The notes beneath the pieces are model-generated. The model was not told the origin of the DNA. It searched no databases and worked only from the letters and a program-made list of their open reading frames with translations. A program made the translations under genes and the position numbers. Below are positions 23,342-30,225 of a stretch of DNA of 35,122 nucleotides, piece by piece (position 1 is the first letter of the stretch; every line of letters starts with the position of its first letter). Origin of the DNA: an uncultured Pseudomonadota bacterium (GTDB lineage: Bacteria > Pseudomonadota > Gammaproteobacteria > Comchoanobacterales > Comchoanobacteraceae); assembly GCA_913020085.1 (NCBI GenBank), contig CAJVZW010000015.1, positions 1 to 35,122 of the forward strand. Reading direction: 5' to 3'.

Positions 23342-23680
23342 CTAAGAGGGTTCGTGGTTGCAGGAGCTGCTTAAAACGAGAGCAGGCCCTGTAGCCTGTT
23401 GAAGGATTTTCACCGAACAATCGTTATATTCATTAATTGGTGAAGCAAGAAAGTCACTGCTGTTTGATTCTTTAAATATAAGGCAAACATTGTTCCCTAC
23501 AGATTTCGTATCAACACTGATATCCACGCTAGATAGCGGAGATATCTCTACTTTATCACTTAATATATCCAGAGGGTTACAATTGTTTTCAATCGTCATT
23601 GTAAAGTGGTTATCAGTAGAATTGTTGACAGTAAATGCAAAGATTGAGGAGCATGCAATCAATGTAATAAAATATCTCAT
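23342..23680 (-). CDS. Small exported protein of unknown function (112 aa)
   Basis: I do not recognise this protein. An N-terminal hydrophobic stretch (YFITLIACSSIFAF) looks like a signal peptide, giving a mature protein of about 95 residues with four cysteines (ENNCNP, NNVCLI, YNDCSV, SSSCNH), enough for two disulfides in the periplasm. The part TVNNSTDNHFTMTIENNCNP, then VEISPLSSVDISV, resembles the start of the mature exported protein at 230-721. The ATG at 23680 is chosen over an in-frame TTG at 23686; no strong ribosome-binding site is visible. It follows recO after 24 bases on the same strand and may be the last gene of that transcript. Confidence 0.55.
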   Translation of the reverse strand: MRYFITLIACSSIFAFTVNNSTDNHFTMTIENNCNPLDILSDKVEISPLSSVDISVDTKSVGNNVCLIFKESNSSDFLASPINEYNDCSVKILQQATGPALVLSSSCNHEPS

Positions 23681-23704
23681 ATACAATAGTTAGCATATAT
23701 GCAA

Positions 23705-24364
23705 TTAATTAGCAATATTGTGCTTTATTAGATCCAGCGATGAAATACTGCCACCGGGAATAAGTATTTGTAACATTTTCCTTATCAGCGGGCCACAAGC
23801 TTGGGCACGCGCTTCGGAGATTTCTCCGCACATAATGGATTTGACATCTTTGACTTGCAGAGGGCTATTTTCACAATTTATTAGCCATCGTTCTTGTTCA
23901 ACATGAATGAAGTATTCATCCGGGTAAGATGTGTCAATACCATACCCGATCAATGTGAGTAAACCAAGCTCGAACCCTCTTACAACTACAGGAAGAGGCT
24001 TGGACTTTAGCTGCTGTAGTGTTTGATAGTAAAGGTTAAAACTTCCCTCCACTGTTCCGGCATCATAAATAAACTTATCCATTAGTTCATTAATATAAAG
24101 GCCAGCAATCAAGGGATAACCGGTTAGATAAAAGGCATCCTGGCTTTGGATATTATACATTTTATACATATTCCCAGTGCTTTTTTTAAGTTGAGTACTA
24201 AAACGCTGGAAAGGTTGCAAGATACCTGATTTTCTCACTTTGGGTAGACGGTAAAATACCGGGATGATCTCATCATCATCTGAAAATACATGGCAAATAA
24301 CCGTGTTATCTTGATAGGGAATTTGACGAATAATAAAGAGATTATTTTTAACAGAATTCATCAT
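23705..24364 (-). CDS. recO: DNA repair protein RecO
   Basis: RecO works with RecR to load RecA on SSB-coated single-stranded DNA. Recognised by the N-terminal OB-fold pattern FIIRQIPYQDNTVICHVFS, then SGILQPFQRF, GLYINELMDKF and RGFELGLLTLIGYGID, which parallel LQPFTPL, GLYINELLSR and RRFELALLGHLGYG in E. coli. Length is 219 residues (E. coli 242). The ATG at 24364 (followed by another ATG) overlaps the TGA of the flippase-like gene as ATGA; a start at 24406 would add 14 unrelated residues. Its usual neighbour era lies one gene upstream, separated by the flippase. Confidence 0.9.
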   Translation of the reverse strand: MMNSVKNNLFIIRQIPYQDNTVICHVFSDDDEIIPVFYRLPKVRKSGILQPFQRFSTQLKKSTGNMYKMYNIQSQDAFYLTGYPLIAGLYINELMDKFIYDAGTVEGSFNLYYQTLQQLKSKPLPVVVRGFELGLLTLIGYGIDTSYPDEYFIHVEQERWLINCENSPLQVKDVKSIMCGEISEARAQACGPLIRKMLQILIPGGSISSLDLIKHNIAN

Positions 24365-25641
24365 ATGATAGCTAATACGCGAGTTGGCGAATGTCGCCAT
24401 ACCCATAGTGCAGCTGCAAGCGCACTCAGCGCGGCAGGTATTGCATCAGCAATGACTGCGCCCGTGAGTCCAATGCGAGGGATCAGTAAATAGGATAATA
24501 AACAAATTGCAACCAGTTTTACTTGTAGTATACGAGAGACGATTCTTTGTTGCCCCCCGAAAATCATGTAATCTAGGGCGGGTTGGCAGATTGTGTATAT
24601 ATGGTAGCAAATTGTGCATAAAACCAGATCTGGAATAATGGTCAGATAAATACTCCCAAAGCGAAGTAAAATCATTTCCGGGTACATAACTATAATCAAA
24701 GTAATCGACCATACGATCAGATAGCGAAAGCGATTTACATGCTTAAGATCCATCTGTAGCTCATCTAGCTGATTCATTTCAAGGTGTCGTGTAATGCGGG
24801 GCTTTAAATAGCTCTCCATTGACTTCGTGCCCAGATGATACGCAAATGTAATGGTTGTGATTGCGCCATAGAAACCAAGCGTCGCATCGGATAGTATGAG
24901 GCTTCCTGCTGGCGCCCATAATGCGTAGTACTGTACAAAGAAATATATGATGGAGCGGCTTAATGTAATGACAAATGTGGATAGCGTAAAGTGGAATCCA
25001 TCATTAATCCACTGGAGGCGGTCAGTTTGACGCGGTTTGGCTCTAGGTATTGGGAACTTGCTAATCATCGCCAAATAGATACTACAGCAGCACACAAATG
25101 AAGCACCGTAGCAAACAACGATATTGATTGTTGTAAGGGGGGTGTTGAAAAATGATAAGCCGAGGATCATTAGCGTGAAACTTAGAGACTGGATGACTGC
25201 CCGCGGGGCAAATGAGAATAGATAAGCTTTATTAAAAAGCAAATATTTATTAAGAATTGTGTCAACACAGATGATAGGAATCATGATAACACCGATCATA
25301 AGGCTGTTATCAATATAGCTGTAGTGGAAGCATAGATAAGACAGTGCCATCAGAACCAGCGATCGATTCATAAGAGAGCGAAACACCCAGCGTACATATC
25401 CATTGAGGTCATTTAGAAGATTTTGTTTTAGATAACGGGAGATATAGTAAAACAGCGCATAGTCTTGCCCAAGGATCATGATATGGCTGATGAAATGGAT
25501 GGCTTTGATTACAAATTTATATTGCCCAAAATCAGCAACACCCACTTGCGAAGAGATATAACTTTCAATAAAAAATATAATATTAAAGGAAATGACTGAT
25601 AGCACCGTGATTAGGCCACTGGTATAAATTAAATTAATCAT
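24361..25641 (-). CDS. Polysaccharide flippase-like (MOP superfamily) membrane protein
   Basis: The 426-residue protein is almost wholly hydrophobic, with about 12 membrane helices separated by short charged loops. The N-terminus (SGLITVLSVISFNIIFFIESYISSQ, VADFGQYKF) and the later LGFYGAITTITFAYHLG resemble Wzx/oligosaccharide flippases, which read QILLARLLGPEEFGLY and related. The LGFYG segment corresponds to the family's VGYYSAA-like region. No substrate can be inferred, and no glycosyltransferase lies nearby. It overlaps era by four bases upstream and recO by four bases downstream (ATGA both times), so it is built into the rnc-era-recO operon, where such a gene is not expected. A different multi-helix exporter remains possible. 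Confidence 0.6.
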   Translation of the reverse strand: MINLIYTSGLITVLSVISFNIIFFIESYISSQVGVADFGQYKFVIKAIHFISHIMILGQDYALFYYISRYLKQNLLNDLNGYVRWVFRSLMNRSLVLMALSYLCFHYSYIDNSLMIGVIMIPIICVDTILNKYLLFNKAYLFSFAPRAVIQSLSFTLMILGLSFFNTPLTTINIVVCYGASFVCCCSIYLAMISKFPIPRAKPRQTDRLQWINDGFHFTLSTFVITLSRSIIYFFVQYYALWAPAGSLILSDATLGFYGAITTITFAYHLGTKSMESYLKPRITRHLEMNQLDELQMDLKHVNRFRYLIVWSITLIIVMYPEMILLRFGSIYLTIIPDLVLCTICYHIYTICQPALDYMIFGGQQRIVSRILQVKLVAICLLSYLLIPRIGLTGAVIADAIPAALSALAAALWVWRHSPTRVLAII

Positions 25642-27199: not shown

Positions 27200-28420
27200 T
27201 CACAATGACTTACCGATACGAGATTGATCGATTTCGCCCGTAAATGGGCTCCAGTTCATCCAGATGTAAAAGGCCTTTCCAATAAGATAGTCACGAGACA
27301 CGGGGCCAAAAATTCTTGAATCACCACTGTTATCACGATTATCACCCATCATGAAATAGTGATTAACTGGAATGACAATATCTGTTAAATCATTTGAGTA
27401 GGTTGGCGATATTTGGATCTCATGCGTCTTTCCAGGTAGAAATTCAGTTAATTGGATAGTTTGTTGACTGTGTTTGGCGGTGGTATTAACAGTTTGGGTT
27501 ACCGGAGTACCATTGATGATAAGTTGTTTATTTTTATATACAATATGGTCGCCAGGCATCCCAACAACACGTTTTACTAGCTTCTCTTCGCCCTTCGGGT
27601 TTTGGAAAACTACAATATCGCCACGCTGCGGGGTACCTATCGGGATGATTTCAGTTTGGGTAATGGGGAGTCTCAAGCCATATGCGTATTGATTAACGAG
27701 CAAGAAGTCACCTGGCATAATTGTTGGTTCAAGTGATCCAGTAGGAACTTGATAAGGTTGCACCACAAAGAAACGAATCAGCGCGATAATCAATAGCGGT
27801 ATAAAATACTGATTTGAAAAGGGTACTAACAAGCTTCTGGAGATTTTTCGCTGAACAATGGGTGAGTATTTAACGATACCCATTAATAATGTCAGCGCCA
27901 CGAATAGGCTTTCGACATTAAAAATTAGAATAACACTGATGCCTGCTGAGAAATAAAATAACTTATAAAGTCTTTCATGCCAGGGTTTAAATGCGTATTG
28001 TGAATAGATAAACACATTGATACAGGAAAGCATGGCGGTGAGTAATAAGAAGACAGAGGGTGCCTGGGCAAAAAAGTTAAATAGGATTCTTAGCTCTTGT
28101 GAAAATGAATAAAGGCAAGATATAAGAACCCCAAGGAATACGAACTCTTTTGCAACATCATAAATGGCTTCCTCTAGCAGAGTTTTCGTTGAATACTTCC
28201 AATAATAACTGGCAATGATGACGCTGGGTATACCTACAACCAGTAATGTGACTTGCATTCCAAATAAAAGATTTACAGCTACTGCCAAAATAAATGAGCC
28301 AAAAAATATACAAGGATCAGTCAATTCATTGTACGATTTATTTTTTGAACTAAGATATCCTGTGAGCAGAAGGGCGATACTTGCAAGCGCAGATAAGGCA
28401 GTGACATTATAGGCAAACAT
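27200..28420 (-). CDS. lepB: Signal peptidase I with a large N-terminal multi-helix membrane domain
   Basis: Removes signal peptides of exported proteins at the periplasmic face of the inner membrane. The catalytic part is normal: Ser229 in QVPTGSLEPTIMPGD (the residue after Ser is Leu, usually Met), Lys283 in LVKRVVGMPGD, and GDNRDNSGDSR. What is unusual is the N-terminus: about 205 residues with roughly six or seven hydrophobic helices come before the helix that leads to the serine, against about 90 residues with two helices in E. coli. Total length is 406 (E. coli 324, many others about 250). The ATG at 28420 has GGAAG five bases upstream; an in-frame ATG at 28432 overlaps the lepA stop and has no such site. 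lepA is directly upstream. Confidence 0.93.
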   Translation of the reverse strand: MFAYNVTALSALASIALLLTGYLSSKNKSYNELTDPCIFFGSFILAVAVNLLFGMQVTLLVVGIPSVIIASYYWKYSTKTLLEEAIYDVAKEFVFLGVLISCLYSFSQELRILFNFFAQAPSVFLLLTAMLSCINVFIYSQYAFKPWHERLYKLFYFSAGISVILIFNVESLFVALTLLMGIVKYSPIVQRKISRSLLVPFSNQYFIPLLIIALIRFFVVQPYQVPTGSLEPTIMPGDFLLVNQYAYGLRLPITQTEIIPIGTPQRGDIVVFQNPKGEEKLVKRVVGMPGDHIVYKNKQLIINGTPVTQTVNTTAKHSQQTIQLTEFLPGKTHEIQISPTYSNDLTDIVIPVNHYFMMGDNRDNSGDSRIFGPVSRDYLIGKAFYIWMNWSPFTGEIDQSRIGKSL

Positions 28421-28431
28421 AGTAACTTCCA

Positions 28432-30225
28432 TTATTTGTCGTTAACTTTTAGAACAGCAAGGAATGCATTTTGAGGTATGTGAACTCTTCCCACCTGCTT
28501 CATACGTTTTTTACCAGCTTTTTGTTTCTCTAGCAACTTTTTCTTTCTTGAGATGTCTCCTCCGTAGCATTTGGCTGTGACGTCTTTTCGCATTGCGCTA
28601 ACCGTCTCTCTGGCAATGATATTACTGCCTATGGCTGCTTGTATAGCAACAGCAAACATTTGCTTTGGTATTAACTCTTTTAACTTCTTGGCCAACAAGC
28701 GACCTAATGAATATGCGCGATCTTTATGTATGATTGTTGCCAGTGCATCTACTTTTTCACCATTAATCATGATATCAAGTCGAACTAATGTTGCTTGGCG
28801 AAACTCTTTAAAGTGGTAATCAAGCGATGCATAACCTCGACTTAACGATTTTACCCGATCAAAAAAATCAAGCACGATTTCACTCATTGGTATCTCGTAG
28901 TGTAATGCGACCTGTTTGCCATGATATTGAACATCTTTTTGTATCCCCCGTCGCTCTATACACAATGTCATGATATTTCCAAGATACTCATCAGGAGTCA
29001 GTATATTTACATCGGCAATGGGCTCATGAATCTCATCGATAAGATTAATATCAGGTAATTGACTTGGGTTACCAATTTCAACACGCTTGCCATCTTTTGT
29101 GACCACAGCAAATATCACGCTTGGGGCTGTTGTAATAAGGCTTAGGTCATACTCGCGTTCCAGACGTTCTTGAACGATCTCCATATGGAGAAGGCCAAGA
29201 AAACCGCAGCGAAAACCGTGACCAAGGGCATCTGAGTTCTCAGGTTCGTAAAATAATGCGGCATCATTGAGGTTCAATTTGGTGAGTGCATCTCTGAATG
29301 CCTCATAATCATCAGCTGATTGAGGAAAGAGGCCAGCATATACTTGAGGCTTACTTTTTTGGAATCCAGGCAGTACCTGCTCACATCCATTTTTTGCCGT
29401 TGTAATGGTGTCACCTACTGGTGCCCCGCTGACATCCTTAATCCCGGCAACTAAAAAACCAACTTGGCCTGCAATCAGAGTATCTTGATCAACCCTTTTG
29501 GGGGTAAAGAAGCCAATTTTAAGTACTTCATATTTCACGTCAGTAGACAGTATTTTGATTTGGCTTTTAAGTTTTATTTGGCCGTTCACGATACGGATCA
29601 ATGAGACAACGCCAAGATAGTTATCAAACCAAGAATCAATAATAAGTGCTTGTAAAGGTGCATCGATATCACCTATTGGGGGCGGTATTTGATGAACCAG
29701 TGCTTCTAGTAGGTGGTCGATTCCTTGTCCAGTTTTGCCGCTCACAGCAATGCTGTGTTCGGTATCAATACCAATTATTTCTTCAACCTCATTTTTTATT
29801 CTCTCTGGATCTGCCTGGGGCAAATCGATTTTATTTAGTACAGGTAAAATCTGTAGGTCATTTTCGAAAGCTGCGTAACAAACCGCGACAGTCTGTGCCT
29901 CGACACCTTGTGCACAATCAACAACGAGTAATGCGCCTTCACAAGCACTGAGAGACCTTGAGACCTCGTAGGCAAAGTCAACATGGCCTGGAGTGTCGAT
30001 GAAGTTAAGCTGGTAAGTTTGACCATTTTGGGCGGTGTAGTTGAGCGTAACCGATTGTGCTTTGATGGTAATACCGCGTTCCTTTTCTAAATCCATGCCA
30101 TCTAGAATACGATCTTGCATTTCTCGTGCATCAATACCTTGGCAGGATTCGATTAACCGGTCAGATATTGTGGATTTTCCATGGTCAATGTGAGCAATAA
30201 TTGAGAAGTTTCTGATATTTTTCAT
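28432..30225 (-). CDS. lepA: Elongation factor 4 (LepA)
   Basis: Translational GTPase that acts on ribosomes. Residues 1-180 are the G domain ([35 protein letters not shown]). The LepA-specific parts include [19 protein letters not shown] and the C-terminal [27 protein letters not shown]. 597 residues equals the family norm, with no indels noticed. The lepA-lepB order with the rnc-era group behind is standard for gammaproteobacteria. The stop shares bases with an ATG of lepB (TAATG). An extended -10 promoter candidate lies 25-53 bases upstream. Confidence 0.97.

Follow-up and report, generated by a model that had tools for sequence, protein, structure and literature searches.

A signal peptidase I with a multi-hairpin membrane anchor, probably grown by copying of its own hairpin

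The lepB gene of an uncultured gammaproteobacterium of the family Comchoanobacteraceae (order Comchoanobacterales) encodes a signal peptidase I in which about 200 extra residues precede the catalytic Ser233. The enlarged anchor is probably made of tandem copies of LepB's own hairpin, one hairpin having become two in an ancestor of the family and the pair having become four in the genus studied here. The gene lies in a stretch of 35,122 nucleotides, hereafter called the window, and was compared with that of a sibling species (G001), with the other genomes of the order and with a survey of the class.

The lepB gene and its catalytic domain

The minus strand of the window carries the order lepA-lepB-rnc-era, followed by a multi-helix membrane ORF and recO. 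LepB is thus encoded next to lepA, rnc and era; the E. coli gene also adjoins lepA and rnc. The features of the locus are as follows, with residues numbered from the first ATG.

28432..30225, minus strand: lepA, whose stop codon shares 1 nt with the first lepB ATG
28426..28430, minus strand: GGAAG, the likely Shine-Dalgarno sequence of the second lepB ATG (28418-28420); the sibling has GGAG at the same place
27200..28432, minus strand: lepB ORF, encoding 410 aa from the first ATG or, if translation begins at the second (28420), 406 aa
28259..28411, minus strand: hairpin A, residues 8-58, two helices; the weakest assignment (hydropathy, AlphaFold2, two-hairpin profile with A+B in register)
28106..28258, minus strand: probable hairpin B, residues 59-109 (in register with the LepB hairpin profile; sibling 12.0 bits, window 4.3)
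28061..28105, minus strand: periplasmic linker, residues 110-124, with a short predicted helix at 112-123; FS.E.R..FNF....P is conserved in the sibling
27920..28060, minus strand: hairpin C, residues 125-171, with an FNVE junction at its end (aligned to the extra hairpin of family members)
27764..27919, minus strand: hairpin D, residues 172-223, the ancestral TM1-loop-TM2 anchor of LepB (alignments, AlphaFold2)
27203..27763, minus strand: periplasmic catalytic domain, residues 224-410 (Pfam, structure comparison)
27734..27736, minus strand: catalytic Ser233, or Ser229 from the 28420 start (alignments)
27572..27574, minus strand: general-base Lys287, or Lys283 from the 28420 start (alignments)

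Judged by its domain and motifs, the product is signal peptidase I (LepB), with an S26 domain and a Ser-Lys dyad. PF10502 matches residues 208-391 only (1.9e-50, 171.6 bits against a cut-off of 22.9), and the NCBIfam model TIGR02227 gives 158.3 bits against a cut-off of 47. The preliminary description was correct in recognising a signal peptidase I with its serine at about residue 229, the position of Ser233 when counted from the 28420 start. The two residues of the dyad stand in the contexts VPTGSLEPT (Ser233) and VKRVVG (Lys287), are invariant across 21 aligned LepBs and align with the E. coli LepB structures 1t7d and 1b12. E. coli LepB is the best solved relative: a Foldseek search with the whole AlphaFold2 model found it at 6.4e-15 and, at E < 0.001, signal peptidase catalytic domains and nothing else. 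The NCBIfam model PRK10861, that of the E. coli-type LepB, gives 151.2 bits, under its cut-off of 277, and the model of the conjugative TraF peptidase (TIGR02771) only 32.6 bits against a cut-off of 100.25. No other S26 match was found in the genome of the window, which is 83% complete. The enzyme should follow the standard Ser-Lys mechanism, with normal signal peptide cleavage.

Among the other ORFs of the window, the multi-helix membrane ORF that separates era from recO (24361-25641, minus strand; 426 aa) matches nothing in Pfam at E up to 10 or in NCBIfam at E up to 1, and looks by eye like a putative protein of the polysaccharide-flippase type. Two short ORFs on the same strand, of 169 aa (230-739) and 114 aa (23342-23686), have no convincing Pfam or NCBIfam match, and the ORF at 1150-2565 on the plus strand resembles a divergent TrkH-like potassium transporter, with NCBIfam scores that fall well short of the cut-offs (192 bits against 331, and 182 against 866).

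Hairpins of the extension and their counterparts in relatives

A hydropathy scan detects seven helices upstream of the catalytic domain, the last one of the catalytic hairpin included, and AlphaFold2 predicts eight long helices and the short one at 112-123, in line with the six or seven extra hydrophobic helices described earlier. Eight helices are therefore predicted in place of a single two-helix anchor hairpin. They pair as 2-30/38-57, 59-80/85-109, 125-146/152-170 and 173-189/202-223, in a model whose mean pLDDT is 74.5 and whose block means are only 44-66 over residues 11-130. Nine Lys and Arg residues fall in the predicted cytoplasmic loops and one outside. The assignment of the hairpins is graded: D is certain, C is well placed by the family, B is probable and A is plausible.

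The extension matches no Pfam or NCBIfam family, the nearest being one sub-threshold Pfam line (DUF1056, E 0.16), and Foldseek with a model of residues 1-230 (pTM 0.37) returned nothing at E < 1, the best hit having E 1.3. Profile and structure searches of the extension alone, which had been proposed at the outset, thus gave neither a family nor a structural relative. A comparison with relatives, proposed as well, showed that ten further genomes of the order carry a second hairpin and that none of the 14 has a convincing separate gene for the extension. The relatives point to copies of the LepB anchor; they do not support the earlier idea of a fused membrane protein, whether as a large foreign domain or as a remnant.

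In an ordinary LepB the catalytic serine follows one hairpin, which consists of a helix (TM1), a basic cytoplasmic loop and a second helix (TM2). A LepB match was found in 13 of the 14 genomes of the order, which holds a single family, and at least a second hairpin is kept in 12 of these 13. The alignment places it in front of the first in the ten genomes outside the genus of the window, while a single additional helix, making three, is present in G010 and about four hairpins (eight helices) in the genus of the window. Helices were counted with a simple hydropathy scan, by which several family members have three helices and not four, although both hairpins are seen in their alignment.

Local alignment of the extra hairpin with the protein's own catalytic hairpin identified unmistakable tandem copies in six of 13 proteins (L036, L050, L034, L088, L125 and L151), for which not one of 400 control windows or 300 shuffles scored as high. 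This pairwise self-comparison is unconvincing in the other seven (L027 is borderline), including all four family members tested (L005, L012, L013 and L020), and because it is too weak within the family, profiles were relied on. A canonical hairpin profile was built from 102 single-hairpin LepBs, and the best of 28 control membrane proteins reached 3.3 bits with it. On the extra region it gives 22.8 bits for L050, 19.4 for L036, 19.3 for L034, 14.5 for L088, 10.7 for L125, 8.8 for L142, 8.4 for L003, 7.9 for L027 and 7.5 for L137; L086, the same protein as L034, is also above the best control, and L005, L020, L012, L001, L062, L151, L149, L007 and L029 are at or below control level. With a profile of the clear extra hairpins, L013, L018 and L005 of the window's family rise above 558 control windows; the other family members do not, and none of hairpins A, B and C of the window's genus is picked out singly.

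Against the family's two-hairpin profile, C+D gives 49 bits over nearly the full length in the window and 47 bits over the last two thirds in the sibling. The A+B pair of the window gives 11.6 bits, in register and nearly end to end, a score that none of 343 control windows and none of 200 shuffles equals; the partial A+B of the sibling gives 8.9 bits, with two of 343 control windows as high. Taken alone against the canonical profile, hairpin B of the sibling reaches its 12.0 bits with 0 of 558 windows as high, and that of the window its 4.3 bits with 17 of 558 control windows as high, the latter score ranging from 2.0 to 9.1 bits with the profile and segment used. A and C alone do not exceed the controls with the hairpin profile. 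Probably, then, the two hairpins of the pair were copied together, as one unit.

In a tree of the catalytic domains, the two eight-helix proteins form one clade (SH-aLRT 99), which is nested in the two-hairpin clade of the family (94, without the divergent proteins of G004 and G006); the three-helix protein L024 was labelled with the two-hairpin group. The fewest changes found for the origin or origins of two-hairpin LepBs on this tree is eight, and the strongly supported branches force only one. The LepBs of G006 (L029) and G004 (L062) have strongly divergent catalytic domains, and their long branch stands apart from the other family members.

Anchors with two hairpins also occur elsewhere in the Gammaproteobacteria. 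An even draw of the class comprised 158 genomes, at least 90% complete by filter, with the window's own (83%) included; LepB was found in 153 of them, 145 of which were resolved. Eight genomes were left out: G044, G081, G121, G151, G163 and G180, together with G111 (L150, no serine motif by pattern) and G026 (L031, masked). Two or more hairpins are present in ten of the 145 resolved genomes, from nine gammaproteobacterial families including the window's (G000, G003, G020, G059, G063, G099, G128, G140 and, in second copies, G116 and G142), frames shorter than 285 aa having been counted, in part by length alone, as too short for a second hairpin. At least three more genomes (G060, G120 and G153) have three helices. 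More than two hairpins were seen among the resolved genomes only in the genus of the window.

Two observations accompany this survey. G116 (L151, contig C74, the copies adjacent) and G142 (L142, contig C71) each have two lepB copies, of which one is of the ordinary kind and the other has two anchor hairpins, which offers a comparison within a genome. L121, L149 and L154 have one extra helix (three in all), and their N-terminus would be cytoplasmic.

The anchor would thus have grown in two steps, by duplication of the LepB hairpin from one to two in an ancestor of the family and by copying of the hairpin pair from two to four in the genus of the window. As each hairpin would begin and end outside the cytoplasm, adding a whole one would leave the topology unchanged, with the N-terminus out and the catalytic domain periplasmic, and this would explain why growth is mostly in helix pairs.

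Alternative readings of the extension

Residues up to 170 are 31% identical between the window and the sibling over 138 aligned codons, with the frame kept; identity is 59% in the region of hairpin D and 73% in the catalytic part. The extension has a pN of 0.47 against a saturated pS of 0.87, and a pN/pS of 0.54 compared with 0.27 for the enzyme. Two patches stand out as conserved, SKT.L..AIYD..KEF at about residues 82-97 and FS.E.R..FNF....P at about 109-125. The lepB ORF is genuine, and by this comparison and the start shared with the sibling its upstream part is translated and constrained, although less so than the enzyme.

What the extra helices do can be read in several ways: they may be a platform, a contact for signal peptides or the translocon, or a product of near-neutral growth. 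Most likely they would form a bundle beside the catalytic hairpin and hold the enzyme at the membrane surface, and the bundle might, at a guess, give contact area to signal peptides or the translocon. The module for handling substrates or binding partners that the preliminary description put forward may also be what they form. On the near-neutral reading, the extra hairpins would still derive from LepB, and the anchor would lengthen as tandem duplications accumulate in lineages with small populations and reduced genomes, no new function being gained. This is a possibility to be taken seriously, if short of an even chance, as the extension is far less conserved than the enzyme, hairpin gain is seen in nine families and the topology is undisturbed by it. 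However, the frame and the two patches have been kept over a deep divergence at which synonymous sites are saturated, and a second hairpin or more has been retained by nearly all LepB-bearing genomes of the order (the 12 of 13 above). Because conservation of the extension is the weaker, near-neutral growth is nearly as likely as a functional role.

A different origin, by fusion of a foreign membrane protein (a piece of a CPA2-type cation/proton antiporter, for instance) to the front of LepB, is quite unlikely. It takes its support from tblastn searches of 369 class genomes with the extension, in which several, the window's own included, showed an antiporter-like protein of about 400 aa matching at about query span 59-197 (best 1.2e-4 per genome); nine of the 22 weak non-lepB hits across these genomes were read, and they are antiporter-like proteins or other membrane frames, the name "antiporter" having been assigned by eye from the sequences. 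A profile of seven antiporter-like proteins gives 21.3 bits on residues 59-198 of the window protein, more than the LepB-hairpin score on the same stretch, and this is the strongest contrary result to the duplication reading. However, these antiporters were chosen for matching, which biases the score upward, a bias correction of 14 bits enters into it, the sibling scores 1.6 bits, so that the CPA2 profile match is not common to the two species, and the matched span extends into hairpin D, which by alignment is LepB's own anchor. Neither Pfam nor NCBIfam reports an antiporter for the extension at E up to 10, and the Foldseek search with residues 1-230 brought up nothing at E < 1. An antiporter origin was rejected because the match came from selected proteins, does not recur in the sibling and overlaps hairpin D. 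Fusion of a foreign domain is probably not what produced the extension.

The sibling's lepB contig is broken inside the first hairpin, and its start was taken from the end of the lepA contig, which continues in the lepB frame as MEKTMLASHIGIFTL and matches MEVTM of the window; the lepB start is the same in both species because the sibling's lepA contig runs into this matching sequence. The start at 28420 is better supported than the first ATG, GGAG in the sibling and GGAAG in the window standing ahead of this second ATG. A start near residue 195, which the preliminary description had considered, is practically excluded by this shared start and by the conservation of the upstream part. Translation from about residue 170-200 with a spurious upstream frame, for which an internal ATG (Met184) and the single helix of Gram-positive type I signal peptidases could be cited, is hardly credible, since a start at Met184 would remove the conserved first helix of hairpin D and the sibling maintains both the frame and the start beside lepA.

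Significance and comparison with known systems

LepB is essential and serves as a target for antibiotics, and the two helices of its anchor are commonly seen as a plain tether. The LepBs compared here form a natural graded series, with the same enzyme on one, two and about four hairpins, that gives a handle on a role of the anchor beyond tethering, for which gauging signal peptides and contacting the translocon are candidates. Growth by whole hairpins is a topology-neutral route for membrane proteins, and if the extra helices are near-neutral, they make a tidy example of a protein that grew and gained no new function.

Older reviews mention a few LepBs that have a third helix. A literature search for signal peptidases with extra or duplicated helices found no report of a duplicated LepB anchor in sources from which subscription journals were mostly absent.

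The E. coli enzyme (S26A) resembles the window protein in the catalytic domain, the Ser-Lys dyad and the boxes; it differs in having one anchor hairpin of two helices and its serine at about residue 90, where the window protein has about four hairpins and its serine at 229/233. The E. coli catalytic domain is described as periplasmic, with a Ser91/Lys146 pair (PMC9360617). The two-hairpin LepBs of the order and of other Gammaproteobacteria (for example L036, L050, L034 and L088) likewise have an extra LepB-type hairpin before the catalytic one but two hairpins, not four. The likeness to CPA2-type antiporters is weak, concerns residues 59-198 of the window protein and does not extend to the sibling.

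The eukaryotic signal peptidase complex, in which Sec11 and accessory subunits build a multi-helix assembly round the peptidase, offers a possible analogy only; in it, a thinned transmembrane lipid window gauges the h-region and selects short h-regions (PMC13385932). By this analogy, the copied anchor might form a single-chain, multi-helix membrane window around the peptidase, in which signal peptides are chosen according to how long their hydrophobic core is; such a bacterial counterpart of the multi-subunit eukaryotic window is unlikely. The eukaryotic complex draws its helices from several subunits, whereas the window LepB carries them all in one chain.
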